Assembly (NCBI RefSeq): GCF_027942865.1
Contig: NC_134525.1
Coordinates: 2,886,994 to 2,950,993 of the forward strand
DNA length: 64,000 bases
DNA from: Odontesthes bonariensis
Taxonomy: Eukaryota; Chordata; Actinopteri; Atheriniformes; Atherinopsidae
Direction of reading: 5' to 3'
Under the pieces are notes generated by a model. It was not told where the DNA came from. It saw only the letters and a list, made by a program, of their open reading frames with translations, and did no database searches. Numbering within the stretch: the stretch's first letter is position 1; each line of letters begins with the position of its first letter. This document shows positions 13,151-63,626 of the stretch, piece by piece. The position numbers were made by a program, and so were the translations under genes.

Positions 13151-13350
13151 GACGTGACATCACTTCACGACATCCTACATTTCCCACAATGCACCTGACC
13201 GTTTTCCATCATTCTGAGTCACCTGCTTCACTCACCTCAGGTTTGGCGATCTTGTCCTGGTCGTCCTGCAGACAGACACACACTGTTCATCATTACGCTC
13301 ACACCGAGTGTGTCGGCACTGATATTTAATTTGAACACACACACTTTAAA
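13151..13350 (-). pseudogene. orphan duplicate of cyb5a exon 3 and flanks
   Basis: About 200 bp nearly identical to 29190-29365. Exon copy at 13236-13265 keeps acceptor CTGCAG, an open 10-codon frame (DDQDKIAKPE, one Ser to Ala change from the true exon) and donor GTGAGT. Exon 4, which should follow about 120 bp away, is missing: the (GT)n tract joins directly to GAGACGTGACATCAC. No copies of exons 1, 2 or 5 are nearby, so it is a non-functional fragment. Confidence 0.85.
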
Positions 13351-13545
13351 ACACACGTTAAAAACACACACACTTTGAACACACACACTTTAAAACACAC
13401 ACACACACGTTAAACATACACACACACTTTAAAACACACACGTTAAGCACACGCACACGTTAAACACACACACACACTTTAAAACACACACACACACGTT
13501 AAAAACACACACACTTTAAAAAACACATGTTAAACACACACACAC
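13330..13545. repeat. (CA)n interspersed with TTTAAA/GTTAAA
   Basis: Same compound repeat as cyb5a intron 2 (29365-31740), extending the duplicated cyb5a-derived block. The related tract 19516-19750 precedes unit C. Confidence 0.85.
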
Positions 13546-13928
13546 ACATTCTCGTACTTAATGCAGAGTAAGGACCGAGTAAAACCACTCACAAAGTGAG
13601 GACCAGTATTTCTAGTTCACTTAAAAACAAACAAAATGTCATTCCAGACACTCGGTGGCATAGTGATACGATACACTGCTTCAGATTTTAAGAGGCACAA
13701 AAGATTCAGAAAAAGATTTTAATCTGTGTTAAACTTTAGGGGTGAAAAATTGACACTTTGGACATTCTGAGGTCCTACTGAGAAAATTAGAGGATAGCAT
13801 CTATATAACCTGAGGAGGTCATCGAGAGGGAAACAAAGTGAGGACCGGCCAAAATGTCCTGACTATGTAAAAATGACCTCACTATGTTGGTTAAAAACTA
13901 GAGTTAGTCCTCACTCAACAGTAAGTGC

Positions 13929-14034
<106 letters not shown>

Positions 14035-14129
14035 TCGTTAGCCCAGTAGCATGCTCACTAAGCAGTTGTTGTGTTGTCCTGTGGTTTAAGGTCATCTGTA
14101 TCCACAGCTGTATTATATGAGATTGCTGC

Positions 14130-14700
14130 TGCTTGTGCTTTTTTGTTTGTTTGGTTGTGTGTTTGTTCTCTGCTTGTTTGGTTGTTTGTGTGTTTGTTTT
14201 CTACTTGTTTGTGTGTTTATACTCTATTTGTTTGTTTGTTTGTTTATACTCTGTTTGTTTGTGTGTTTGTACTCTGCTTGTTTGTGTGTTTGTGTGTTTG
14301 TTCTCTACTTGTTTGTGTGTTTATATTCTGCTTGTTTGTTTGTTTGTTTTTTGTTTTTTTTGTGTGTTTTTACTCTGCTTGTTTGTTCTCTGCTTGTTTG
14401 TTTGTGTGTTTGTGTGTTTGTTTATTCTCTGCTTGTTTGTTCGTGTGTTTGTTTGTTTGTTTATTCTCTGCTTGTTTGTGTGTTTGTTTTCTGCTTGTTT
14501 GTTTGTTCTCTGTTTGTTTGTGTTTGTTCTATGCTTGTTTGTTTGTGTGTTTGTTTGTTTGTTTGTTTATTCTCTGCTTGTTTGTTTGTTCTCTGTTTGT
14601 TTGTTTGTGTGTTTGTTCTCTGCTTGTTTGTTTGTTTGTGTGTTTGTTCTCTGCTTTTTTGTTTGTTTGTTTGTGTGTTTGTTCTCGGCTTGTCTGCTTA
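14130..14700. repeat. (GTTTGTTTGTGT..TTCTCTGCTT)n array
   Basis: Degenerate tandem array of TTTG/TGTG runs alternating with TTCTCTGCTT. All three plus-strand frames stay open, giving Cys/Leu/Val/Phe-rich false ORFs. Copy in unit C at 20310-20755. The array ends in both at CTGCTTACAGGTGCTCCTGG. Confidence 0.9.
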
Positions 14701-15778
14701 CAGGTGCTCCTGGTGCCTCTCAGGGTGGATTCCCCACAAAAGCCGTGGATTGTACAGGTGAAGCAGCTGGTTGTCTGATTTTTCATTGTTTTTTATGTTT
14801 GTCTCTTCATGTTTCTGTTCCTTTTTTTTCTTTCCTTTTTTGTCTTCTTCGCTCTCCCTCTCTCTCTGTCCCCCGGTCCGGTTGGGCACTATTATCATAT
14901 CATGTTAAATATTGTAACAAAAATAAATAAATAAAAATGAGGAGTTGATGGGCATCAAGGGGAGCTTTACATTCATAAAGCTTCCCTTGGCATAGCAAAT
15001 GTGTTTGTTATTCAGATTACAATTCTGCTGCCATAATGCTGGACAGGACAACGGGGTTAAAAAAAGAAATCTTGATTAAACCATGACAGAAATGTCAGAA
15101 CAGCAGAGCTCACAGAATAATAACTGATCATCTGAAGCTAAATCTTTCTGAGAGACGGAGGGAAGAAAACTGGACTCATTTCTCTGTGATGAAGCTGTTT
15201 TATTGAAGGAAGTCAAAAGGACAAATATTTCCTGCTCTGAACATGAACTCTGGACTTTGTGCTGTCACAGGAAAACTGCCTCAGTTAGACCCGCATATCA
15301 GTTTGACATTTTCTCCATCAGATTCCACAGAAACAAATCAAATCAAATCAAATCAAATTTATTTATAAAAGCATTGCAGCAGGGAGTGGAAGAAGCATTA
15401 AAAATACATAGAAGAATATAAAGAGAAACAAATAAAATGATTTAAATGAATTTAAAAACAAGCAACAGTCCAGATAAATTCAGAAAGTAATCCAGATTAT
15501 TTCCCCATTTCCAAAGTGATGAGATCTGAAAAGAGTCTGTGATAAAGGAAGGTCTGCTGATTCCTCTGTTGGGCTCCATGAAGTGGAAGAGAAACAACAA
15601 CATACAGACACATCAGCACCAGGATCCGACTGATGTTTAGAGCTCAGAGAAGTTTAGATTTTCATGTGGAGAAATATTTCTGTGAATCAAACTCCTCATC
15701 AGCAGTGATATCCTCCATGGCTGCACAGACACAGGAAACAGCAGCAACTAAACAGCAGAGCAGCAGAGACATCACAGC

Positions 15779-16316
15779 AACCAGCTGTCAGCAACCAGCT
15801 GTCAGCAACCAGCTGTCAGCAACCAGCTGTCAGCAACAGGCTGTCAGCAACAAGCTGTCAGCAACAAGCTGTCAGCAACAAGCTGTCAGCAACAAGCTGT
15901 CAGCAACCAGCTGTCAGCAACAAGCTGTCAGCAACCAGCTGTCAGCAACAAGCTGTCAGCAACAAGCTGTCAGCAACAAGCTGTCAGCAACCAGCTGTCA
16001 GCAACCAGCTGTCAGCAACCAGCTGTCAGCAACAAGCTGTCAGCAACCAGCTGTCAGCAACAAGCTGTCAGCAACCAGCTGTCAGCAACCAGCTGTCAGC
16101 AACTAGCTGTCAGCAACAAGCTGTCAGCAACCAGCTGTCAGCAACCAGTTGTCAGCAACCAGCTGTCAGCAACCAGCTGTCAGCAACCAGCTGTCAGCAA
16201 CAAGCTGTCAGCAACAAGCTGTCAGCAACCAGCTGTCAGCAACCAGTTGTCAGCAACCAGCTGTCAGCAACCAGCTGTCAGCAACCAGCTGTCAGCTACA
16301 AGCTGTCAGCAACAAG
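15779..16316. repeat. 14-bp minisatellite B
   Basis: About 38 units of CTGTCAGCAACMAG, the same family as 8567-10100 but much shorter and with fewer CGGC/CTGC variants. Begins 25 bp beyond the TRIM B stop. Confidence 0.95.
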
Positions 16317-16340
16317 CAGACTAAATACATTTATTTCACT

Positions 16341-18008
16341 TTACACAAACTCTGCTGAGTCTCCAGGAGAAAAAGAATAAATCCTGATCCCAGCACAGAG
16401 CGGCTGAGTGAATGTGGTCTGGACTCTGTGGAGGAGAGTCATGGTTCCAGAGACGCTGTAGAAGGACAGAATACCTGCTCTGTGATCCAGGTACACTCCC
16501 ACTCTGGAGGACCAAGGACCTGAGATGGAGGTTTCTATGTTGTTGTACCTAAATGAATAACTGTTTGGGTAACAATCTAATGCCCAAGATTTGTCATTAG
16601 ATCCAAATACACATTCAGTTACACTTCCTGCTCTGCTGATGTTCTTGTATGCGACTGCTACAGCAACTCCTCCTCTCATCTCCACCTCCCAGTAACAACG
16701 TCCAGTCAGACTCTCTCTGCTCAGGACCTGAGAACAGTCAGTGAATCTGTCTGGATGAGCAGAATAAGACTGAAGTTGTTTCATTAATGTCACTTTTCTG
16801 CTCCCCTCTGACAGTAACAGCTCTCTGTGTGCTGTGTTTGGATCCAGTGTGATTTTACATGAATATTTTAAGAATCCAGCTCTGCTCGTTGGTTCTGGCT
16901 GTGGCAGTAAAACATCCACTTCAGCGACTCTCAGTGAGATGTTGGCCCATTCCTCTCTCAGGATGTCCTGTAGTTTATCTCTGAGCTCTGACACAGCTGC
17001 TGTCACATCCTCAAAGTGCCTCAGAGGACGGATCTGGATGCTGGATGAGTGTGTAGCCCCCCTGAGTGCTGCCACTGAGGGGCAGCTGTGCAGAAACTGG
17101 CTGTGATCCTCTGTGTGTGAGAGCTGCTGCAGCTCAGCATCTTTCCTCTTCAGCTCAGTGATCTCCTGCTCCAGCTTCTCCTGAAGCTCTTTGACTCGCC
17201 TCCCTTCGGCTTCCTGCTGGGATCTGATCTGCTGCTTCACATCAGAGCTTCTTTTCTGGAGGAGACGGATCAGCTGGCTGAAGATCTTCTGGCTGTGCTC
17301 CTCTGTTTTATCAGCAGAGCGATGGATGGCCTCCAGCTCCTGCTGAAGCAGCTTCACATCTTTCTCTGCGTCCTGGATTCTCTGCTGGATCTGCTGCCGA
17401 CTCCCCTCCAGCTCTCTCTGCCTCTCAGTCCTTTCTGCTGCAGCTGACACTGTGTCGTGGCCTTTATGTTCATCCATTAAGCAGAGATAACAGATGCACT
17501 TCTGATCCGTACGGCAGAAAATCTTCATCACCTCATCGTGATCAGAGCAGATGTTCTCCTGGAGCATCTTGGAGGGCTCCACCAGCTTGTGTTTCCTGAG
17601 TGGAGCTGAATCATAATGAGGCTGAAGGTGTTCCTCACAGTAAGAGGCCAGGCAGGATAAACAGGACTTGGCGGCTTTCAGCTTCCTCCCAGAGCAGACA
17701 TCACAGGCCACATCTTCAGCTCCAGCATAGCAGTGATCAGCAGGAGCAGCACGGAGTCCAGTCTTCTTCAGCTGCTCCACTAAATCAGCTAACAGGGTGC
17801 TTTTCTCCAGGACAGGCCTCGGTGTGAAGGTTTTCCTGCACTGAGGGCAGCTGTGGATCCCCTTATGATCCTCTGCATCCCAGTGGCCTTTAATACAGCT
17901 CCTGCAGTAGCTGTGTCCACAGGGAATAGTCACCGGATCCTTCAGCAGATCCAGGCAGATCGAACAGGAGAAGCTTTCTCGGTCCAGCTGAACTCCTTTC
18001 TGCGCCAT
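16341..18008 (-). CDS. TRIM B, fish TRIM16-like / finTRIM-type E3 ubiquitin ligase
   Basis: Intronless 555-residue paralogue of TRIM A. All RING ligands (C15 to C57), the first zinc module and B-box2 (C154 to H184) are intact. There is a long coiled coil and a full PRY-SPRY. It differs from TRIM A at only a handful of sites in the first 370 residues, but at many sites in the SPRY (for example YNNIETSISGPWSS against HNKIFTSISVPRAS) and lacks the expanded Pro-Glu linker. It shares the ..DSAEFV end with A. The flank keeps AACTGAAAC at 18052-18060, an IRF-type core. Probable E3 ligase; target and inducibility are inferred from the family. Confidence 0.92.
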   Translation of the reverse strand: MAQKGVQLDRESFSCSICLDLLKDPVTIPCGHSYCRSCIKGHWDAEDHKGIHSCPQCRKTFTPRPVLEKSTLLADLVEQLKKTGLRAAPADHCYAGAEDVACDVCSGRKLKAAKSCLSCLASYCEEHLQPHYDSAPLRKHKLVEPSKMLQENICSDHDEVMKIFCRTDQKCICYLCLMDEHKGHDTVSAAAERTERQRELEGSRQQIQQRIQDAEKDVKLLQQELEAIHRSADKTEEHSQKIFSQLIRLLQKRSSDVKQQIRSQQEAEGRRVKELQEKLEQEITELKRKDAELQQLSHTEDHSQFLHSCPSVAALRGATHSSSIQIRPLRHFEDVTAAVSELRDKLQDILREEWANISLRVAEVDVLLPQPEPTSRAGFLKYSCKITLDPNTAHRELLLSEGSRKVTLMKQLQSYSAHPDRFTDCSQVLSRESLTGRCYWEVEMRGGVAVAVAYKNISRAGSVTECVFGSNDKSWALDCYPNSYSFRYNNIETSISGPWSSRVGVYLDHRAGILSFYSVSGTMTLLHRVQTTFTQPLCAGIRIYSFSPGDSAEFV

Positions 18009-19515: not shown

Positions 19516-19553
19516 GATACAAACCCCACGTTAAACACAAACACACACACGTT

Positions 19554-19589
<36 letters not shown>

Positions 19590-19750
19590 TAAAACACACT
19601 TTAAAACACACTTTAAAAGAAACACACACGTTAAACACACACACTTTAAAACACACACACACACGTTAAACAAACACACATTTTAAAATACACACACCTT
19701 AAAACACACACTATAAAACACACACACTATAAAACACACATACACACATT
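19516..19750. repeat. (CA)n with TTTAAA/GTTAAA spacers
   Basis: Compound repeat matching those at 13330-13545 and 29365-31740, directly before unit C. Confidence 0.85.
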
Positions 19751-20112
19751 CTCGTACTTAATGCAGAGTAAGGACCGAGTAAAACCACTCACAAAGTGAG
19801 GACCAGTATTTCTAGTTCACTTAGAAACAAACAAAGTGTCATTCCAGGCACTCGGTGGCATCGTGATCAGATACACTGCTTCAGATTTTGAGAAGCACAA
19901 AAGATTCAGAAAAATAATTTAATCTGTTTTAAACTTTAGGGGTGAAAAATTGACACTTTGGACATTCTGAGGTCCTACTGAGAAAATTAGAGGATAGCAT
20001 CTATATAACCTGAGGAGGTCATCTAGAGGGAAACAAAGTGAGGACCGGCCAAAATGTCCTCACTATGTTGGTTAAAAACTAGAGTTAGTCCTCACTCAAC
20101 AGTAAGTGCAAG

Positions 20113-20190
<78 letters not shown>

Positions 20191-21856
20191 TACACACACA
20201 TTCATTAGCCCAGTAGCATGCTCACTGATCAGTTGTTGTGTTGTCCTGTGGTTTAAGGTCATCTGTATCCACAGCTGTATTATATGAGATTGCTGCTGCT
20301 TGTGCTTTTTTGTTTGTTTGTTTGTGTGTTTGTTCTCTGCTTGCTTGTTTGTTTGTTTGTTTGTTTATTCTTTGTTTGTTTGTGTGTTTGTACTCTGCTT
20401 GTTTGTTTGTTTGTGTGTTTTTTATCTGCTTGTTTGTTTGTTTATTCTTTGCTTGTTTGTGTGTTTGTACTCTGCTTGTTTGTTTGTTTGTGTGTTTGTT
20501 CTCTGCTTGTTTGTGTGTTTGTTTGTGTGTTTGTTTGTTCTCTGCTTGTTTGTTTGTGTGTTTGTTCTCTGTTTGTTTGTTTGTTTGTGCGTTTGTTCTC
20601 TTTTTGTTTGTTTGTTCTCTGCTTGTTTGTTTGTTTGTTTGTTTGTTCTCTGCTTGTTTGTTTGTGTGTTTGTTCTCTGCTTGTCTGTTTGTGTGTTTGT
20701 TCTCTTCTTGTTTGTTTGTTTGTCTGTTTGTGTGTTTGTTCTCTGCTTGTCTGCTTACAGGTGCTCCTGGTGCCTCTCAGGCTGGATTCCCCACAAAAGC
20801 CGTGGATTGACTTCAGTTTTGTTTTTACAGGTGTAGCAGCTGGTTGTCTGATTTTTCATTGTTTTTTATGTTTGTCTCTTCATGTTTCTGTTCCTTTTTT
20901 TTCCTTCTTCGCTCTCCCTCTCTCTCTGTCCCCCGGTCCGGTTCAGCACTATCACATCATGTTAAGTATTGTAACAAAAATAAATAAATAAAAATGAGCA
21001 GTTGATGGGCATCAAGGGGAGCTTTACATTCATAAAGCTTCCCTTGGCAAAGCAAATGTGTTTGTTATTAACGGTATTCAGATTACAATTCTGCTGCCAT
21101 AATGCTGGACAAGGACAAGGGGTTAAAAAAAAGAAATCTTTTTTAACCATGACAGAAATGTCAGAACAACAGAGCTCAGAGAATAATAACTGATCATCTG
21201 AAGCTAAATCTTTCTGAGATGGAGGAAAGAAAACTGGACTCATTTCTCTGTGATGAAGCTGTTTTATTGAAGTCAAAAGGACAAATATTTCCTGCTCTGA
21301 ACATGAACTCTGGACTTTGTGCTGTTACAGGAAAACTGCCTCAGTTAGACCCTCATATCAGTTTGACATTTTCTCCATCAGATTCCACAGAAACAAATCA
21401 AATCAAATTTATTTGTAGCACATTTCATATACAAAACAATTCAAAGTGCTTCACATAAAATAAAAGCATTGCAGCAGGGAGTGGAAGCATTAAAAATACA
21501 TAAAAGAATATAAAGAGAAACAAATAAAATGTATTTAAAAACAAGCAACAGTCCAGATAAATTCAGATATTAATCCAGATTATTTCCCATTTCCAAAGTG
21601 ATGAGATCTGAAAAGAGTCTGTGATAAAGGAAGGTCTGCTGATTCCTCTGTTGGGCTCCATGAAGTGGAAGAGAAACAACAACATACAGACACATCAGCA
21701 CCAGGATCCGACTGATGTTTAGAGCTCAGAGAAGTTTAGATTTTCATGTGGAGAAATATTTCTGTGAATCAAACTCCTCATCAGCAGTGATATCCTCCAT
21801 GGCTGCACAGACACAGGAAACAGCAGCAACTTAACAGCAGAGCAGCAGAGACATCA

Positions 21857-22388
21857 CAGCAACCAGCTGTCAGCAACCAGCTGTCAGCAACCAGCTGTCA
21901 GCAACCAGCTGTCAGCAACAAGCTGTCAGCAACAAGCTGTCAGCAACCAGCTGTCAGCAACCAGCTGTCAGCAACAAGCTGTCAGCAACCAGCTGTCAGC
22001 AACCAGCTGTCAGCAACCAGCTGTCAACAACCAGCTGTCAGCAACAAGCTGTCAGCAACAAGCTGTCAACAACAAGCTGTCAGCAACAAGCTGTCAGCAA
22101 CCAGCTGTCAGCAACAATCTGTCAGCAACCAGCTGTCAGCAACCAGCGGTCAGCAACCAGCTGTCAGCAACCAGCTGTCAGCAACTAGCTGTCAGCAACA
22201 AGCTGTCAGCAACAAGCTGTCAGCAACCAGCTGTCAGCAACCAGCTGTCAGCAACCAGCTGTCAGCAACAAGCTGTCAGCAACAAGCTGTCAGCAACAAG
22301 CTGTCAGCAACCAGCTGTCAGCAACCAGCTGTCAGCAACAAGCTGTCAGCAACAAGCTGTCAGCAACCAGCTGTCAGCAACCAGCTGA
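21857..22388. repeat. 14-bp minisatellite C
   Basis: About 38 units of CTGTCAGCAACMAG. Begins 20 bp beyond the residual TRIM C stop. Confidence 0.95.
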
Positions 22389-22408
22389 CTAAATACATTT
22401 ATTTCACT

Positions 22409-23087
22409 TTACACAAACTCTGCTGAGGCTCCATTATAAAGCCAGATCCCAGCACAGAGCGGCTGAGTGAATGTGGTCTGGACTCTGTGGAGGAGAGTCA
22501 TGGTTCCAGAGACGCTGTAGAAGGACAGAATACCTGCTCTGTGATCCAGGTACACTCCCACTCTGGAGGCCCGAGGAACTGAGATGGAGGTAAAGATCTT
22601 GTTGTGCCTAAATGAATAACTGTTTGAGTAACAATATAATGCCCAAGATTTGTCATTAGATCCAAATACACACTCATTCCCACCTCCTGCTCTGCTGATG
22701 TTCTTGTATGAAATCCAGTGTGATTTCACATGAATATCTTAAGAATCCAGCTCTGCTCTCAGGTTCTGGTTCTTGTTCTGGTTGTGGCAGTAGAACAGCT
22801 CCAGCATAGCAGTGATCAGCAGGAGCAGCACGGAGTCCAGTCTTCTTCAGCTGCTCCACTAAATCAGCTAACATGGTGCTTTTCTCCAGGACAGGCCTCG
22901 GTGTGAAGGTTTTCCTGCACTGAGGGCAGCTGTGGATCCCCTTCTGATCCTCTCCATCCCAGTGGCCTTTAACACAGCTCATGCAGTAGCTGTGTCCACA
23001 GGGAATAGTCACCGGATCCTTCAGCAGATCCAGGCAGATCGAACAGGAGAAGCTTTCTCGGTCCAGCTGAACTCCTTTCTGAGCCAT
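22409..23087 (-). pseudogene. TRIM C, doubly deleted TRIM pseudogene
   Basis: Starts like its siblings ([15 protein letters not shown]) with a complete RING set. The first internal deletion, near 22797, removes everything from just after DHCYAGA to VLLPQPE, that is both B-boxes and the coiled coil. A second deletion near 22710 removes the PRY and the start of SPRY and shifts frame. The upstream ORF then ends at 22674 (137 residues: RING plus linker). The SPRY tail continues in another frame at 22409-22729 and resembles TRIM A rather than B; it also lacks the SFSPGD segment near the end. A RING-only product is conceivable, but I call it a pseudogene. Confidence 0.88.
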
Positions 23088-25459: not shown

Positions 25460-25544
25460 TCACTCGCGTTCTGTGGTGTAGATGCGGTATATCAGCGTGA
25501 CGATGGCGGCTGCAAGTGCAGGGATCACCAAGTTGGTCCACCAG
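25460..25544 (-). CDS. cyb5a: cyb5a exon 5 (membrane anchor and stop)
   Basis: 85 nt. Acceptor CTTCCAG, split Ser codon, then [20 protein letters not shown] and IYTTERE before TGA at 25462-25460. A hydrophobic helix of about 17 residues flanked by WW and basic/polar residues is the ER tail anchor. Confidence 0.95.
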
Positions 25545-25950: not shown

Positions 25951-26467
25951 TGGACTGACTGACGAATTAACTAACTGACTGACTGACTGACTAACTAACT
26001 AACTAACTAACTGATTGACTGACTGTCAGTCTGTTGATTTACGTGACAGAAAACTCTAATCAGAAAACAAACTAATCAGAGAACCGTCACAGTATGTAGT
26101 TATAACGTTAACTGTATACTTGATTAACTAACTAGATTAGCAGGCGATAACTAAAAGCTAAACATTCTGTTAGATCCCTAACTGATGACCAAATAAAACA
26201 AATAGCATGTTAACCTACTGGTATAGAAACGCAGACAAGTAGTTAACGACGTAACAGACTATTTATCAACCCATTTATCCACCCAGGTTAGCCATAAACT
26301 GGTTAAATGTAATCATAAATAATCAGAATGCTAACTTGACAGAAAAAACTAACCAAGCTAAAACAACCAAACATCCAGTTACATCATGATCTGGAACAAA
26401 GAGACAGCTCGTTAAGTATTCTACTCACTACTAACTATCGCTAGTTAACCAACTAACTATCTAACCC

Positions 26468-26509
<42 letters not shown>

Positions 26510-29074
26510 CTGACCAACTTACTGACTAACCCAACTAACTATCTAACCCAGCTAAGTATCTAACCGAACTAACTATCTAACCAACTAACTCTCGAACCAA
26601 CTATCTGATCAACTGACTAATCCAACTAACTCTCTAACCAACTGACTGACTAACCCAGCTAACTCTCTAACCCAACTAACCCTCTAACAAACTAACTATC
26701 TAACCCACCTAACTCTCTAACCAACTAACTCTCTAACCAACTGACTGACCTAACTTACTATCTAACCCAACTGAATATCTAACCAACTAACTATCTAACC
26801 CAGCTAATTATCTAACCAAGCTAACTATCTAACCCAACTATCTAACCAAGATAACTCTCTAACCAACGGACTGACTAACCTAACTGACTATCTAACCCAA
26901 CTAACTATCTAACCCAGCAAACTATGTAACCCAACTAACTATCTAACTCAACTAACTCTCTAACAACTAACCCTCTAATCAACTAACTCTCTAACCCAGC
27001 TAACTATCCAACGCAACTAACTATCTAACCCAGCTAACTCTCTAACCAACTGACTGACCTAACTGACTATCTAACCCAACTAACTATCAAACTCAACTAA
27101 ATCTCTAACCAACTAACCCTCTAATCAACTAACTCTCTAACCCAACTAACTATCTAACCAACTATCTATCTGACCAACTAACTCTCTAACCCAACTAACT
27201 CTCTAACTTAACTACCTCTCTAACCAACTAACTATCTGACCAACTAACTCTCTAACCCAACTAACTCTCTAACCAACTAACTATCTAACCCAACTAACTA
27301 TCAAACCAACTATCTATCTAACCAACTGACTTACCTAACTAACTAACCCAACTAAATATCTAACCAACTATCTAACCAAACTAACTATCTAACCCAACTA
27401 ACTATCTAACAACTATCTATCTGACCAAATAACTCTCTAGCCCAACTAACTCTCTAACCCAACTAACTATCTAACCAACTAACTATCTAACAACTATCTA
27501 TCTGACCAACTAACTCTCTAACCCAACTAACTCTCTAACCCAACTAACTATCTAACCAACTAACTATCTAACTCTCTAACCAACTAACTATTTAACCAAC
27601 TAACTCTCTAATCAACTAACCATCTAACCCAAATAACTCTAACCAACTACCTCTCTAACCAACTAACTCTCGAACCAACTAAATATCTGACCAACTAACT
27701 GACTAATCCAACTGACTGACTAACCTAACTAACTATGTAACCCTACTAACTATCTAACCAACTAACTCTCGAACCAACTAACTATCTGATCAACTGACTA
27801 ATCCAACGAACTCTCTAACCAACTGACTGACTAACCTAACTAACTATCTAACCCAACTAACTATCTAACCAACTAGATATCTAACCCAACTAACTCTCTA
27901 ACCAACTGACTGACTAACCGAACTATCTAACCCAACTAAATATCTAACCAACTAACTATCTAACCCAGCTAACTCTCTAACCCAACTAACCCTCCAACAA
28001 ACTATGTAACCCAACTATCTAACTCAACTAACTCTCTAACCCAACTAACTATCCAACCCAGCTAACTATCTAACCCAACTAACTATCTAACCCAGCTAAC
28101 TCTCTAACCAATGGACTGACTAACCTAACTGACTATCTAACCCAACTAACTATCTAACCCAACTAACTATCTGACCAACTAACTCTCTAACCAACTAACC
28201 CTCTAATCAACTTACTCTCTAACCCAACTAACTCTCTAACCCAACTAACTATCTAACCCAACTAACTATCTAACCCAACTAACTATCTAACCAACTATCT
28301 ATCTGACCAACTAACTCTCTAACCCAACTAACTGACTAACCTAACTATCTAACCCAACTAACTCTCTAACCAACTAACTCTCTAACCCAACTGACTGACT
28401 AACCTAACTATCTAACCCAACTAACTCTCAAACCAACTAACTATCTAACCCAACTAACTTTCTAACCAACTGACTGACTAACCTAACTATCCAACCCAAC
28501 TAACTCTCTAACCAACTGACTGACTAACCTAACTATCTAACCCAACTAAATATCTAACCAACTAACTATCTATCTAACTCTCTAACCAACTAACTATCTA
28601 ACCAACTAACTCTCTAACCCAAATAACTCTAACCAACTACCTCTAACCAACTAACTCTCTAACCCAACTAACTCTCTAACCAACTGACTGACTAACCTAA
28701 CTATCTAACCCAACTAAATATCTAACCAACTAACTATCTATCTAACTCTCTAACCAACTAACTCTCTAACCCAACTAACTCTCTAACCAACTAACTATAT
28801 GACCAACTAACCATCTAACCCAACTAACTCTCTAACCAACTACCTCTCTAACCAACTAACTCTCGAACCAACTAACTATCTAACCCAACTAACTCTCTGA
28901 CCAACTGACTATCTAACTAACTAACCCTCTAATCAACTAACTATCTGACCAACTAACTCTCGAACCAACTAACTATATACCCAACTAACCATCTAACATC
29001 CACTGATGTCGGAGTAGTGATGAAGCAGAAGAGTTTCACTTTAATGGTAAAAAAAGGTTAAAACCAGGTGTGTA

Positions 29075-29115
<41 letters not shown>

Positions 29116-30098
29116 ACCTGCTCTCCTCCATCACAGTGGTCACCAGAGTTTCCTGTAAAACAAACGCACATGATGAGACTCAACAGAGAGACGTGACATC
29201 ACTTCACGACATCCTACATTTCCCACAATGCACCTGACCGTTTTCCATCATTCTGAGTCACCTGCTTCACTCACCTCAGGTTTGGAGATCTTGTCCTGGT
29301 CGTCCTGCAGACAGACACACACTGTTCATCATTACGCTCACACCGAGTGTGTCGGCACTGATATTTACTTTGAACACACACACTTTAAAACACACACACA
29401 CACACACTATAAAACACACACACTTTAAAACACACACACACACACACATTAAACACACACACACACTTTAAAACACACACACACACACACACACTTTAAA
29501 ACACACACACACACACTTTAAAACACACACACTTTAAAACACACACACACACACACATTAAACACACACACACACTTTAAAACACACACACACACATTAA
29601 ACACACACACACACTTTAAAACACACACACACACACACACTTTAAAACACACACACACACACTTTGAACACACACACTATAAGAAACACACACACACACA
29701 CACACACACACTTTGAACACACACACTATAAAACACACACACATGTTAAAGACACACACTTTGAACACACAAACACACACACACACGTTGAAAACACACA
29801 CACACACACTTTGAAAACACACACAGTTTGAACACACAAACACTTTGAACACACACTTTGAACACACACACACACACACTATAACACACACACTTTAAAC
29901 ACACACACACTATAACACACACACACTATAACACACACACACGTTGAACACACACACACACACACTATAACACACACACACTTTAAAACATACACACACA
30001 CACTTTAAAACACACACACACACACAGTTTATAACACACATACATACATGCTGAACACACACACTATAAAACACACACACGTTAAACACACACACTTT

Positions 30099-30151
<53 letters not shown>

Positions 30152-30677
30152 ACGCTTTGAACACACACACACAGTTTGAACACACACACACACATGCTGA
30201 ACACACACACTTTGAACACACACACACAGTTTGAACACACACACACACACACATGCTGAACACACACAGTATAAAACACACACTTTAAAACACACACACG
30301 TTCAACACACACACTTTGAACACACACACTATAAAACACACACTTTAAAACACACACACGTTAAACACACACACTTTGAACACACACACACATGCTGAAC
30401 ACACACACTTTAAAACACACACACGTTAAATACACACACTATAAAACACACACTTTAAAACACACACACGTTAGACACACACACTTTGAACACACACACA
30501 CACGTTGAACACACACACACTTTGAACACACAAAAAAACCACACGCACACACGTTGAACACACACACACACTTTAAAACACACACACACTATAACACACA
30601 CACACACACACACACACACTATAACACACACACACACATGTTGAACACACACACACTTTAAAACACACACACACACT

Positions 30678-30708
<31 letters not shown>

Positions 30709-30770
30709 TATAACACACACACACACATGTTGAACACACACACACACACTTTAAAACACACACACACACT

Positions 30771-30805
<35 letters not shown>

Positions 30806-31097
30806 TAACACACACACACACATGTTGAACACACACACACACACTTTAAAACACACACACACACACACACTATAACACACACACACACACGTTAAACACA
30901 CACACACACACACACACTTTGAACACACAAAAAAAACACACGCACAGACGTTGAACACACACACACACTTTAAAACACACACACACACATTATAACACAC
31001 ACACACACACACACATGTTGAACACACACACACACTTTAAAACACACACACACTATAACACACACACACACACATGTTGAACACACACACACACTTT

Positions 31098-31128
<31 letters not shown>

Positions 31129-31905
31129 TATAACACACACACACACACACTATAACACACACACACGCTTTGAACACACACACACGTTGAACACACACAC
31201 ACTTTGAACACACACACTTTGAACACACACACACACTTTGAAAACACACACTTTGAACACACACACACACTTTGAACACACACACACACACACGCTTTGA
31301 ACACACACACACGTTGAACACACACACACTTTGAACACACACACTTTGAACACACACACACACTTTGAAAACACACACTTTGAACACACACACACACGTT
31401 TAACACGCACACGCTTTGAACACACACACACGTTGAACACACACACACTTTGAACACACACACTTTGAACACACACACACACTTTGAAAACACACACTTT
31501 GAACACACACACACACGTTTAACACGCACACGCTTTGAACACACACACACGTTGAACACACACACACTTTGAACACACACACTTTGAACACACACACACA
31601 CTTTGAAAACACACACTTTGAACACACACACACACGTTTAACACGCACACGCTTTGAACACACACACACTTTGAACACACACACGCTTTGAACACACACA
31701 CACTTTGAAAACACAAAAAAAAACACACACTATAACACACACGCACGGACTGACCGGGTGCACCTCTCCGATCACCATGCTGCTCGCCATCTCTCTGGCA
31801 TCGCTGGAATGTCCCACGTCCTCGAAGCTCTCGGTGGCGTTCCCCCCCGCCTGCTCCCTGAGCACCTCCTCTCCTCCGGGGTGCTGCCGCCACACACACA
31901 CACAC

Positions 31906-31983
<78 letters not shown>

Positions 31984-34900
31984 CCTTTATGGCGTCCTGA
32001 CGGCACCAACCTCCCACAGACGCTCACATGTCACGCCCATGGGAGGTTTTAGTTTGGTGTTTTATGTCTTAATCATGTCTTAGTTTTTAAGTCCAAGTTT
32101 AGACCAGGAGAAACTCATCCATGCACTCATCTCCAGTAGACTCCATCACTGTAACGCTCTTTAAACTGGACTTCCCAAAAAGAGCATTAAACATCTGCAG
32201 CTCATCCAGAACGCTGCTGCTGGAGTTTTAACCCGGACTAAGAGATCTGAACACATCACAGCAGCTTTAAAGTCTTTACTCTGGCTTCCAGTCCGTCACA
32301 GAATAGATTTTAAAAGCCTGCTGATGGTTTCCAATCTGTGATCTGTTCAGAGAATATAAAGCCAGCAGAGCTCTTAGATCCAAGGACTCAGGTCAGCTGG
32401 TCCAGTCCAGAGTCCAGACTAAACATGGAGAAGCAGCATTTAGCTGTTATGCTGCAAACAAGTGGAACAAACTGCCAGTGGAGATTAAACTTTCACCAAA
32501 TGGAGACATTTTTAAATCCAGGTTAAAAACATTTCTGTTCTCATGTGTCTATGCATGAAATCTGCACGCTATCTTTGAACTTATCTGGACTGTTGCTTGT
32601 TTTTAAATTAATTTAAATGATTTTATTTGTTTCTCTTTATATTCTTTTATGTATTTTTAATGCTTCTTCCACTCCCTGCTGCAATGCTTTTATTTTATGT
32701 GAAGCACTTTGAATTGTTTGTACATGAAATGTGCTATATAAATAAATTTGATTTGATTTGACGATTTGATTTGATTTAGTTTTTAGTTTAGCCATGTTTT
32801 CCCCGTAGTTTCTGTTGCTTTGCCATCACCTTAGTCATGTATTTTTATTATTAGTTAGTAGTAGTAGTAGTAGTAGTATTTTTACTAGAATTGGTATTAT
32901 TATTGTTGTTGTTAATACAATCATTGTAAATATTTTTTTTAAATTTGAGCTACTTGACTAATTTGAATTTCCCCCACTGGGGGATGAATAAAGTATCGTT
33001 TTGCATGAAAGTCAGACCTCGCATCGCTTGGCTGGTGTTTGCTGCTCGGTCTGCACAGCAGGCAGTGATATCAAGGGAGGCAAAAATAGCGCCAAGCGAT
33101 GCGAGGTCTGACTTTTTCATGCAAAACGATTTTGTGATGCAAATGTATTACTCTTTTGAACGCATATTGTTCTGAGAAGCAAAACGCTTTATTTTTTAAA
33201 CCCCAGCCAACTAGCCGGACTACCTTCATCAGCACCAAAACGAGGCTGGAACTCTGCTCACAGGACGCAGCAGGGGGTAAGAAGATGTTCAGAAATGATG
33301 CTGCTGATATGGGATGTTACACAGCTTCATGTCTAAAGAGGCGAACTGTCCCTTTAAGTATGTATCCATGCTATGTCAAGTCTTTTGTTTTTGTTTTGTC
33401 GCAATTATTATTCAAGTACTTATTCCACAGTTTAAGTTTTCTGATATCCGGCTCAGCCGCGTCTTTTGTTTGAACTTTGTTTCTCGTGAATAAATCCAAG
33501 TTGTGCCTTTTTACATCTGAGTCCGCATCCGTGTCCCCCCACCCCCACCCCCACCTGACATTACAGATGTTTGGGGGTAACTAATCCACGTCTTTATTTC
33601 CAACTGTCCTGCTTCTCCGTGTCCCTGATTAAGACCGATCCCAGCGTCCTGGCAGTGACTCATAGTAACACATTAAAACAAGCCGTTCACCTCTGCACAG
33701 CTGCCAAGAAACAGCTGGATTCAGGCAGCTTATTGGGTCTAAAGGTTTTAATCTGATCGGTAACATATCAACAAGCCGTTCACCTCTGCACAGCCTGAAC
33801 AATCCTTCTGACTGAAGCCACGGCTCCAAAGTCCAAACAGAGTGTTCTTCTTTGTGTGTTAGAGGTTCCTCCGTGTGCACGAGTGAAAAACTCAGTTCAC
33901 CAACTGAACTACTAACCAGAAAAGCTGCAAAGCATTCAGATTTAACTAACTAAGCTGTAGCCTTTAAGCATACTTCCACTTTACAGCCCAAGCAGCTTAC
34001 CAGCTGCCTCATTTCCAACCAGTTAGACGCGCCAGCAAAACTACCCCGAACACAAAGCCGGTGAGATAAATAACTAATTACTATCACAACCAGCTCTCTA
34101 ACTAACCAGCAGCAGCCAGGAAACAACTAGTCTTATTTGTTACTATGAAACGACCGAATATTTACAGCTAAAGAACAAAGACAACTTAAATGGCTAATTG
34201 ACCCACCTGGGAACTAAATACTGCCACAAAGATTTATCACTCCTCAGAGACTAGTTAAACTGGTTACATAAGTAACTAGCACGTCTGCTCACAGAAAAAG
34301 ACGCATTTTGAGTTATTAAACCAACTAAATGGACTTAGCACCAATTCAAGACAATTCAAGGAAAACAATAGAGCGTGGACGAGGCGAAGGTGGGGAGAAA
34401 AACTTGCTTATAACAGAACCAGGAAGGGCGGCCATCGGCCTCCATCCAGCCCCGGAACACAGAAACGAGCCCCTTTGTTGGCCCGTTTCTAAAAGTAAGC
34501 AGCTCATAATAGATGAAATGCTCTCAGTGGGGACCAGAGGTGGGTAGTAACGAGTTACATTTACTTGAGTAAGTTTTTTGAAAACATTATACTTCCAGGA
34601 GTAGTTTTAAATCTCTATACTTTTTACTTTTCCTTGAGTAGATGTGTGCAGCAGAAACTGTCCTCTTACTCCGCTACATTAGGCTACAATGAGCAGGTTA
34701 CTTCTCTTCTTTATTCTGACAGAGAGAGAGACTTCCGCCAAAGGCTCTACCACCTGACTGTGTTCCACCAATCAGACGCAGCCGTGCAGTCTGGTCACGT
34801 GACCGTACTCAATCTCAGCGGCGGGACGGGTTAGCTTTAGCATTAGCAGTCGTAGCAAACAAACAAAGAAACAGATGAAAGATGTCAGAACCAACGGTGG

Positions 34901-36475
34901 GAAATGAAGACGCAGACGAGGCCTCATACTGAAAGCATGTTTACCTTACAAAGAGTGAGAAACAGCAGCTACATTATGTGTCTTCTGCGTCAACCAAAAC
35001 AAACGCACATTTCAGCAGAAACTCAACATCTAACTTGAGGAAACATGTAGCGCTAAGTTTCCTAAACTCGTTTTTCCCCCCATGGATAGGTGAATGTTTG
35101 TTTTTTAGGTTACATATGGGTTACATATGTTTTAAACATTTCCTAAGTCTCTTTTATTCTTTATTGAAGTTCTTGAATTTACCTGGATTATTTTAATTTA
35201 AGCTATTTTGTAATTAATTAATTCATTTTAATTTATTTTATCAATTGGATGAACTCTAATTGGCCTAAAGATGATTATTTAGTATTTTTGTCTGTCTGAT
35301 TGAATGCTTGTGTTAACAAATAAATCAGACGTTACTCAACAGTTACTCAGTACTCGAGTAGTTTTTTCACCTCTTACTCAAGTAATTATCTGGATGACTA
35401 CTTTTTACTTTTACTGGAGTCATATTATTCTAAAGTAACGGTACTTTTGGCTGCTGTACCCACCTCTGGTGCGTTTATGTTCTGCAGTTATATGCCCGGG
35501 CTTTTATGACTTATTACACTGATATTAAACGTGTTGCTTTATAACTACGTGTAGCATTTCGTTATGAGGAGATATTACAGACATTTCCTTTAATTAAAAA
35601 GGCATAAAGTGTCTCCTTTAAGCTACAGAGTCATTGTTGTGTTTGATTTGCTTAAATCAATGCCAGCAGTAAAAAAAAACAAAAACTGAGCCTTTTGAAG
35701 TTAGAGTAACGTCTGAATTTCCTGCCGTTTGTGGCTGTTTTCCCCTACATTTATTAACGGTTACGGGTGTTTTAATATTTTAATATCAGCATGTGTGAAC
35801 CCAGCGCTGTTCACAAATACCATTCAGTATAAATATCGTTTAGAAACAGTGCTTTTAAACCAAAGTTTGGTGATATTAGGACATCGGTTTGCAGGAAAAT
35901 GAGCCAAACTCTGTGATCTGTCCTCTGCAGAAACTCAGAAAAACATCCGAGGGACGTTTAAAGCCATGCAAATCCTCTTTGGTCTAACAGAGACCACACC
36001 TGCAGTGAATTTCCTCAGGTTGCATTTGCTCATTTTTACACCTGAAACACTTTTTACCTGATGTTTTAAGTTTCAGCAGGGGGCCCGGGCCCCGCAGACC
36101 TGAAATCTCCAGTGACGCCCCTGGTCTCAACTCAAACTGTGGATTTTCCTCCAGATTTTAAGCCCCAAAAAGGTTCACATTTAAAGCAGCGAACAACGCA
36201 AACACTTTCAGGATGTTTCCTACTGAATAAAACAGCTGTTTGGTTGTTTTTACCTGCTGGATTTCCCTGTTTTTTTGGCTGATTTCCTCTTTCAGGTTGC
36301 TGTAATAAATAAAGAAGCAGAAAAAAAAGCCCCTCACCTCCTCCAGAAACTTGGTGACATCGTAGACTTTGTTGTGGATGATGATCCAGGTAGATTTGAA
36401 GGAGTTCTGCTCCTCTATCTCTGACAGTCTGTAGTATTTCACTCCGGCGGGGCTCTGCTCCCCTTTTTCACCCAT
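25460..36475 (-). CDS. cyb5a: cyb5a, microsomal cytochrome b5 (complete)
   Basis: Five minus-strand exons: 36338-36475, 31755-31883, 29275-29304, 29118-29152 and 25460-25544. They total 417 nt, giving 138 residues. Cytochrome b5 is the small haem protein that passes electrons from NADH-cytochrome b5 reductase or P450 reductase to fatty-acid desaturases, P450s and other ER enzymes. Exon 2 holds both axial haem ligands, His47 in HPGG and His71 in VGHS. Exon 5 encodes the C-terminal anchor ([22 protein letters not shown], about 112-133) followed by the short lumenal TTERE tail, typical of the ER tail-anchored A form. Exon phases are 0, 0, 0, 2. Length is close to the mammalian 134. Introns 2 and 4 consist largely of microsatellites, and exon 2 has a very unusual acceptor tract. 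Identity is firm. Confidence 0.96.
25562..26030. repeat. (CTAA)n / CTGACTGATTGA repeat
   Basis: Pure CTAA tracts mixed with CTGA and ATTG variants, beginning 18 bp from cyb5a exon 5 inside intron 4. Bases 26031-26439 are non-repetitive intron with a few CTAAC motifs. Confidence 0.92.
26440..29000. repeat. 2.5-kb CTAACT-based satellite in cyb5a intron 4
   Basis: Degenerate 15-17-bp units such as CCAACTAACTATCTAACC and CCAACTAACTCTCTAA. Same family as 12376-13033, supporting duplication of this intron next to TRIM A. Confidence 0.93.
29069..29115. repeat. (GT)n directly after the cyb5a exon 4 donor
   Basis: On the cyb5a sense strand this is (CA)n beginning within the donor (GTGCACACAC). A CA-rich element next to a weak donor. 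Confidence 0.95.
29118..29152 (-). CDS. cyb5a: cyb5a exon 4
   Basis: 35 nt. Acceptor TTTTACAG, donor GTGCAC. Encodes [11 protein letters not shown] and the first two bases of the next Ser codon. This is the hinge between haem domain and membrane anchor; phase 0 in, phase 2 out. Confidence 0.92.
29275..29304 (-). CDS. cyb5a: cyb5a exon 3
   Basis: 30-nt in-frame exon, acceptor CTGCAG, donor GTGAGT. Encodes [10 protein letters not shown], corresponding to the segment after GEVHP in the b5 fold. A nearly identical orphan copy is at 13236-13265. Confidence 0.93.
29365..31740. repeat. 2.4-kb compound (CA)n array with TTTAAA, TTTGAA, GTTGAA and TATAA spacers
   Basis: CA runs of 6-40 bp separated by short AT-rich spacers fill cyb5a intron 2 almost completely. 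Higher-order repetition of about 115 bp occurs at 31180-31640. Minus-strand ORFs rich in Cys and Val in this interval are artefacts. Confidence 0.95.
31755..31883 (-). CDS. cyb5a: cyb5a exon 2 (haem-ligand exon)
   Basis: 129 nt, phase 0 on both sides. Begins [14 protein letters not shown] and continues [13 protein letters not shown] to GEVHP. Both haem-ligand histidines are encoded here. Donor GTCAGT; the acceptor GGCGGCAG is preceded on the sense strand by (TG)n rather than pyrimidines. Confidence 0.94.
31890..31981. repeat. (CA)n adjacent to the cyb5a exon 2 acceptor
   Basis: About 46 CA units with a single G. On the cyb5a sense strand it is a (TG)n tract ending 7 bases before the exon 2 acceptor AG cluster. 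Confidence 0.97.
32105..32770 (+). mobile_element. L2-like LINE 3' remnant
   Basis: Frame-broken translation includes [23 protein letters not shown] type reverse-transcriptase C-terminal features, then [19 protein letters not shown]-like text split by a frameshift. It ends in GTGCTATATAAATAAATTTG and a TTTGATTTGA tail. Sits in cyb5a intron 1. The same tail occurs in all three TRIM units. Confidence 0.75.
32997..33128. repeat. long inverted repeat (36/38-bp arms, about 58-bp loop)
   Basis: Left arm 32997-33032 and right arm 33091-33128 are reverse complements apart from two extra bases in the right arm; the core is GTCAGACCTCGCATCGCTTG. In cyb5a intron 1. Possibly a very small MITE; it would form a strong RNA hairpin if transcribed. 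Confidence 0.85.
33129..34534 (-). other. cyb5a intron 1, unassigned part
   Basis: No exon recognised. A short AAGCCGTTCACCTCTGCACA motif occurs twice (about 33680 and 33773). Otherwise no structure. Confidence 0.5.
34535..35468. mobile_element. hAT-like TIR element (CAGAGGTGGGTA ends)
   Basis: Left end CAGAGGTGGGTAGTAACGAG and right end (reverse complement) CAGAGGTGGGTACAGCAG. Subterminal TTACTTGAGTAA-type motifs occur at both ends. Flanking octamers do not match convincingly. No transposase. In cyb5a intron 1. Confidence 0.75.
36076..36125. repeat. short hAT-type end fragment
   Basis: GGGGGCCCGGGCCCCGCAGA followed by CCAGTGACGCCCCTG looks like a degraded terminal fragment of a CAGGGGCG-type hAT element. 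Too short to classify firmly. Confidence 0.4.
36338..36475 (-). CDS. cyb5a: cyb5a exon 1
   Basis: 138 nt, 46 codons. Starts [20 protein letters not shown], continues [18 protein letters not shown] and ends at donor GTGAGG in phase 0. The YYRLSEIEE and [12 protein letters not shown] blocks are diagnostic of cytochrome b5. Confidence 0.96.

Positions 36476-40233: not shown

Positions 40234-63626
<23,393 letters not shown>

Follow-up and report, generated by a model that had tools for sequence, protein, structure and literature searches.

An adenine-free (TG)46 tract in place of the pyrimidine tract and usual branch-point zone at the acceptor of cyb5a exon 2 in a fish genome

We identified a (TG)46 microsatellite ending 7 nt upstream of cyb5a exon 2, within a stretch of 100 nt (31886-31985, minus strand) that contains no adenine, in the analysed window, i.e. 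the whole 64,000-nt stretch of DNA on contig C25 of a fish genome (945 Mb searched). Exon 2 is probably mainly included in the mRNA, by way of a branch point at the upstream margin of the tract (about -104) and with the UG tract taking over from a pyrimidine tract, while skipping of exon 2 appears as the lesser possibility. The site represents a natural test of a minimal vertebrate acceptor placed before an exon that is indispensable to the protein, its minimal features being a last intronic stretch with under half pyrimidines, 100 nt without A and 99 nt without AG.

The exons 1-5 of cyb5a, when joined, result in an intact 138-aa frame, and the gene possesses the Cyt-b5 domain, the two haem histidines and the C-terminal anchor (Table 1). 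An interpretation as a pseudogene was rejected on the grounds of the intact frame and the clean exon boundaries. Exon 2 and the human protein are 77% identical across 44 positions, and from this match we take the gene to be cyb5a. Searching the genome with the Cyt-b5 profile yielded 11 matches (17 candidates scored), of which two are the cyb5a exons, two belong to a cyb5b-like paralogue and the remaining seven are other b5-domain matches, the names other than cyb5a being assigned by reading fragments. No second cyb5a was found among these 11 matches, so exon 2 is needed for haem binding and, given the intact frame, heavy skipping would remove the haem-binding product. The cyb5b-like paralogue has an ordinary acceptor at the equivalent intron position (read by eye), so the TG tract is not required for this exon as such. 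Regarding the donors, that of exon 4 matches 6 of 9 consensus bases compared to 7, 7 and 8 for the other cyb5a donors; the donor of exon 2 carries a C at +3 (GTCAGT), yet reaches 7 of 9 consensus bases, the same as exon 1. In PMC9014596, an alternative-start transcript of CYB5A is reported that skips exon 1, not exon 2. Introns 2 and 4 consist mostly of tandem arrays, of approximately 2.3 kb in intron 2 and of 2.5 kb in intron 4 (26446-28997, 17-bp TAAC-type unit, 159 copies, 77% match), and intron 1 contains perfect inverted repeats at 32995-33130 with 25-nt and 16-nt arms being 58 and 104 nt apart.

Table 1. Features of the cyb5a locus, in positions of the window.
Feature	Position	Strand	Method or remark
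Exon 1, coding part, 46 codons (MGEK...FLEE), donor GAG/GTGAGG	36338..36475	minus	
Intron 1	31884..36337	minus	
Interspersed repeat DNA	32025..32180	minus	genome copy search
Predicted 16-bp hairpin, arms 32048-32033 and 32023-32008	32008..32048	minus	
Nearest adenines upstream of the exon 2 acceptor	31986..31999	minus	
(TG)46 tract, interrupted once by a C in place of T at 31910 (-27)	31891..31982	minus	TRF
GCGGCAG, end of intron 1, acceptor AG at 31885-31884	31884..31890	minus	
Exon 2, 129 nt, phase 0/0, donor CCG/GTCAGT	31755..31883	minus	Pfam Cyt-b5, E 1.3e-10
GU-rich minisatellite (sense) in intron 2, starting ~40 nt past the exon 2 donor	29396..31715	minus	TRF
Exon 3, 30 nt	29275..29304	minus	
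Exon 4, 35 nt, weak donor CAG/GTGCAC	29118..29152	minus	
(CA)18 from +4 of intron 4	29079..29114	minus	complementary to (TG)46
Coding part of exon 5 with the membrane anchor, ending in the stop at 25460	25460..25544	minus	

A sequence-only reading of this DNA had described about 46 TG units before exon 2, an acceptor AG at 31885-31884 and the next sense adenine upstream only at 31986, which is borne out by the sequence and by TRF (31891-31982, period 2, 46.0 copies, 97% match). Repeat and length thus stand in that description, which omitted the single T-to-C change dividing the tract into 36 and 9 perfect TG units on either side of the C at 31910; moreover, the bases following the repeat are GCGGCAG, the first G of the GGCGGCAG given there being part of the repeat. 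The length of exon 2, its phase and its two haem ligands (His47 and His71) were found as described within the intact frame, and translation of the joined remaining exons confirmed that omission of exon 2 stays in frame, leaving 95 aa. Also the claimed absence of an ordinary pyrimidine tract holds, as only 9 of the 20 positions from -23 to -4 are pyrimidines, compared to 10/20, 13/20 and 14/20 for exons 3, 4 and 5; judged by this count alone, the acceptor of exon 3 is hardly better. Between the acceptor AG and the preceding AG lie 99 nt, the threshold for the class of exons with distant branch points being about 100 nt. With independent bases, 9e-11 A-free runs of 100 nt are expected on the minus strand, showing the run to be no accident of composition. 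The whole window contains six A-free runs of at least 100 nt on both strands, which makes the cyb5a run remarkable for its location, not for existing. There are five TG/CA tracts of at least 18 units in the window, and at this tract density a gene with four acceptors is expected to have a tract that ends no more than 10 nt from one of them approximately 0.0016 times. This is rare for a single gene, but if 20,000 genes are assumed it would add up to tens of such cases, a rough figure derived from one repeat-rich window.

The unusually distant branch point claimed in the sequence-only reading follows on condition that the branch base is an A. The best formal candidate is A31987 in CATAAAG at -104, having a U two bases before, and a weaker one is 31998 in CCGTCAGG at -115. 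A consensus branch site with an adjacent pyrimidine tract was not found at the upstream end of the zone, both candidates being followed by the TG repeat. Use of upstream acceptors, i.e. the AGs ending at 31997 and 31985, was considered and rejected, as it would retain 113 and 101 nt, respectively, and shift the frame. A distant branch point would be unneeded if the lone C at 31910, or a U, acted as branch base at an ordinary distance. Non-A branch points do occur in human introns, and the sole interruption of the tract is precisely a C at -27 with a U two bases before; however, C branches are uncommon, the chance of one change among 92 positions landing at -18 to -45 amounts to 0.30, and the tracts at two further TG-tract acceptors of the genome described below (L095 and L103) also bear T-to-C changes, at different distances. 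We regard this possibility as quite unlikely.

Further upstream, intron 1 contains interspersed repeat DNA, of which the part from 32180 to 32101 is 98-99% identical to 39 other copies (40 scored of 1500 candidates, self included) and the part from 32098 onward is 78-96% identical to 39 other copies (40 scored of 96, self included). The matches of the copies from 32098 stop between 32047 and 32025, the furthest ending approximately 142 nt upstream of exon 2. Upstream of the TG tract a hairpin is predicted, folding of the 119-nt stretch giving -37.9 kcal/mol (z -3.60, one of 200 shuffles being as good). Its left arm lies inside the repeat DNA in the furthest-reaching copies and its right arm is matched by no scored copy. 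In this predicted fold, the two AGs with their ends at 32023 and 32011 would be masked. For fission yeast, structures shortening the distance between branch point and acceptor were predicted and in part tested, as stated in the excerpt of PMC9508853.

In the reading that we consider probable, inclusion of exon 2 from a branch point at the upstream edge, a TG microsatellite would have grown across the last 100 nt of intron 1, displacing both the pyrimidine tract and the zone in which a branch point usually lies, with cyb5a still working and exon 2 still being defined and mostly included. The U2 snRNP would select one of the adenines bordering the tract on its upstream side, A31987 being the likeliest, and the role of the pyrimidine tract may be filled by UG-binding proteins such as CELF, PUF60 or proteins of the U2AF kind, or the tract might itself act as a fish-type GU enhancer. 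In the second step, the acceptor would then be reached as the first AG downstream, the tract itself being free of AG. What we infer here are the branch point, the proteins involved and the level of inclusion. The presence of TG-tract acceptors before other coding exons of the genome (described below) and the intact gene without a second cyb5a among the Cyt-b5 matches argue for inclusion. The good conservation of exon 2, as judged by its identity to the human protein and by its Pfam Cyt-b5 match, points the same way, as does the resemblance of the AG-free 99 nt with a group of adenines at the upstream edge to the predicted distant-branch-point exons described in the excerpt of PMC1431707. The cyb5a site resembles these exons in its AG-free 99 nt, a length right at the threshold, and in the candidate branch A at the upstream end, and differs from them in lacking a good branch consensus and a pyrimidine tract beside the candidate. 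Arguing against inclusion, CATAAAG is a poor branch sequence, the AG at 31986-31985 lies within 2 nt of the candidate branch A and must be bypassed, and the C at +3 of the exon 2 donor is a further point on this side, as are the AC partner looked for and not found in intron 1, the Pfam scores below the curated cut-offs for two of the three comparison exons and the ordinary acceptor of the cyb5b-like paralogue. The same excerpt (PMC1431707) reports alternative splicing to be commoner in human exons with a large AG-free zone, the excess of cassette exons being significant from an AG-free zone of 100 nt, and cassette exons making up 32.5% on average at zones of at least 150 nt versus 19.8% overall; some skipping of exon 2 would thus be no surprise. 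Partial skipping depending on TG length is possible and need not be the main outcome. The (TG)46 tract is long enough for pUG quadruplexes, for which 12 G are needed according to the excerpt of PMC12962679, and these might compact the tract.

Substantial skipping would result if TDP-43, perhaps together with CELF proteins, coated the UG tract and blocked U2AF/SF1, with skipping rising with TG length and yielding a 95-aa membrane-anchored peptide unable to bind haem. The presence of (TG)46 without a T tract, the frame-preserving length of exon 2, the GU-rich DNA also located downstream of its donor and two TDP-43_N loci encoded in the genome (E 4.2e-29 and 1.4e-28) are consistent with this, as is the exon silencing by CUGBP2 from UGUGU motifs around branch sites reported in the excerpt of PMC2715136. 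The known system is CFTR exon 9, for which the excerpt of PMC12171016 describes TDP-43 acting on (TG)12T5 together with hnRNP A1. Both sites have a TG repeat directly upstream of an exon holding an essential part of the protein, and the 46 units of cyb5a exceed the approximately 12 UG units upstream of the AG that mark the CFTR type. In contrast to CFTR exon 9, cyb5a has GCGGC instead of a (T)n between the repeat and the AG, its TG units are approximately four times those of the (TG)12 in the excerpt of PMC12171016, and skipping is for it a predicted outcome, in an otherwise intact gene. In addition, CFTR exon 9 requires an hnRNP A1 silencer (PMC12171016, excerpt), heavy skipping would abolish the haem-binding product as no second cyb5a was found, and comparable TG acceptors precede other coding exons of the genome. 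We regard TDP-43 repression as a rather unlikely explanation.

Fish possess AC/GT-bridged, U2AF2-independent introns in which GU and AC tracts at the intron ends form a working class (Lin et al. 2016, as cited in the excerpts of PMC7404189 and PMC12962679), making inclusion of exon 2 through a UG tract unsurprising. Intron 1 could itself belong to this class, its 3' GU tract being paired to a 5' AC tract. The GU tract at its 3' end and the occurrence of the class in fish (PMC7404189 and PMC12962679, excerpts) would fit, but the defining AC partner in the same intron was looked for across intron 1 and not found: there is no sense (CA) tract of at least 8 perfect units in intron 1 (31884-36337), and the best duplex window of intron 1 reaches only -47.9 kcal/mol and lies 2.8 kb from the 5' end. 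As this search of intron 1 revealed no AC partner, the known bridged arrangement is absent, and membership of intron 1 in this class is extremely improbable. The arrangement encountered instead is a putative cross-intron version embracing exons 2-4. The cyb5a site resembles the bridged fish introns of the excerpts (PMC7404189, PMC12962679) in having a long 3' GU tract instead of a pyrimidine tract, and differs from them in that the strong AC partner sits at the exon 4 donor, in another intron. The cyb5a site resembles a further known system, the GT-repeat enhancers, in having GU repeats beside an exon in a fish intron. GT repeats are reported to be intronic splicing enhancers in fish (Yeo et al. 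2004). In distinction to these enhancers, the cyb5a repeat overlies the core acceptor signals themselves.

The cross-intron partner is found at the start of intron 4, which opens with GTG(CA)18 (29079-29117, minus strand), overlying the donor of the 35-nt exon 4 and thereby rendering this donor weak. A scan in 80-nt windows with a step of 20, covering the transcript between 36475 and exon 5, showed (CA)18 to be the best duplex partner of (UG)46, at -106.9 kcal/mol versus -49.1 kcal/mol for the best non-overlapping window. Seen from the side of the CA tract, the GU sequence of intron 2 at 30155-30076 is nearly equal (-91.0 versus -94.6). Complementary tracts at the exon 2 acceptor and the exon 4 donor could favour back-splicing of exons 2-4, which amount to 194 nt and are not a multiple of 3. 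Pairing of (UG)46 with (CA)18 would bring the two splice sites together; the predicted products are a circular RNA spanning exons 2-4 (194 nt) and an exon 1-5 product with a shifted frame, both made at the expense of full-length mRNA. That pairing of flanking introns promotes back-splicing is described in the excerpts of PMC12404201 and PMC7075436, and (CA)18 both begins at +4 of a weak donor and is the best tract partner in the scanned transcript; against this, the GU tracts of intron 2 are closer to the CA tract and would compete at nearly equal energy, and some CA or TG tract near some splice site is expected in a gene so rich in repeats. We consider this outcome very doubtful. There is also a very slim chance that (UG)46 and (CA)18, overwriting splice sites of different introns, constitute a back-splicing switch producing a circular RNA of the haem-binding exons, with the output of cytochrome b5 being lowered by repeat length. 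Among the papers listed in our literature search, none described circular RNAs with GT/AC repeats in the flanking introns.

Full inclusion of exon 2 would mean that a UG tract suffices in place of both the pyrimidine tract and the branch zone even when the AC partner known from the fish class is lacking. Partial skipping or back-splicing would instead make the length of the repeat a natural dial on cytochrome b5.

Comparable acceptors were searched for in the genome with the pattern (TG)10 N0-12 CAG N105-135 GTRAGT. The matches listed comprise at least 44 distinct places, one being a repeat cluster; 23 places were retrieved, 21 of which were read by script and one (L102) by hand, giving 22, with L096 left out. 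Three of the 22 places are supported as TG-tract acceptors before coding exons (L085, L095 and L103), their inclusion being predicted from sequence alone. L085 has a (TG)18CAG acceptor with 38 A-free bases, and its exon of 38 aa aligns over its entire length with a second locus (76%) and also with a third (35%), the peptide having no match in Pfam, NCBIfam or PDB. In L095 the A-free run is 78 bases and the AG-free zone 99 nt long, and the exon that follows is C1-like (Pfam C1_1, E 0.0055, below the curated cut-off). In L103 (C4:42694774-42694920, minus strand), (TG)36-CGTGTGT-CAG, with an A-free run of 80 bases and an AG-free zone of 110 nt, precedes a putative CD20-like exon (Pfam E 0.00082, below the curated cut-off), and this acceptor is the closest sibling of the cyb5a site found among the 22 places read. 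NCBIfam gave no match for three peptides, and PDB searches with single exon peptides gave none or one match at chance level. The remaining 19 of the 22 places have no convincing family match, either on testing or for want of an open or submitted frame, an open frame alone being weak evidence at the exon length sampled; the matches to Pfam obtained with the peptides from L098 and L102 seem to be due to chance. The fn3 profile matches, many of which lie in just two stretches of a single contig, were left out of the exon sample. Several of 16 exon heads resemble known protein exons by eye; these are too short to test and were left uncounted.

With 100 A-free bases, cyb5a exceeds all 22 places read, the largest of which has 80. 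The tract of L086 measures 92 nt and its AG-free zone 110 nt, although an A adjoins its CAG and no frame is open there, so the tract length and the AG-free zone of cyb5a are not unique. The cyb5a site is real and extreme, yet belongs to a known kind of site. In the raw genome counts, the TG pattern has 240 forward and 62 reverse matches versus 39 and 160 for the reversed pattern, and its (CA)10 version 295 and 76 versus 76 and 357, one orientation in each pair counting shifted starts of a single tract multiply; an excess of TG over CA at acceptor-like places is not seen in these counts.

Repeats are abundant also elsewhere in the window. A duplicated segment of approximately 3 kb is present at 13334-16500 and 19540-22559 (85-94% identity in three pieces, compared up to 16500), each duplicate containing a long CA repeat (13934-14033 and 20115-20186), and within the second duplicate 38 copies of the 14-bp unit CAGCAACCAGCTGT are found at 21857-22387 with 95% match. 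An (AAGA)28 repeat at 42373-42485 (99% match) results in a 132-nt A-free run on the minus strand.
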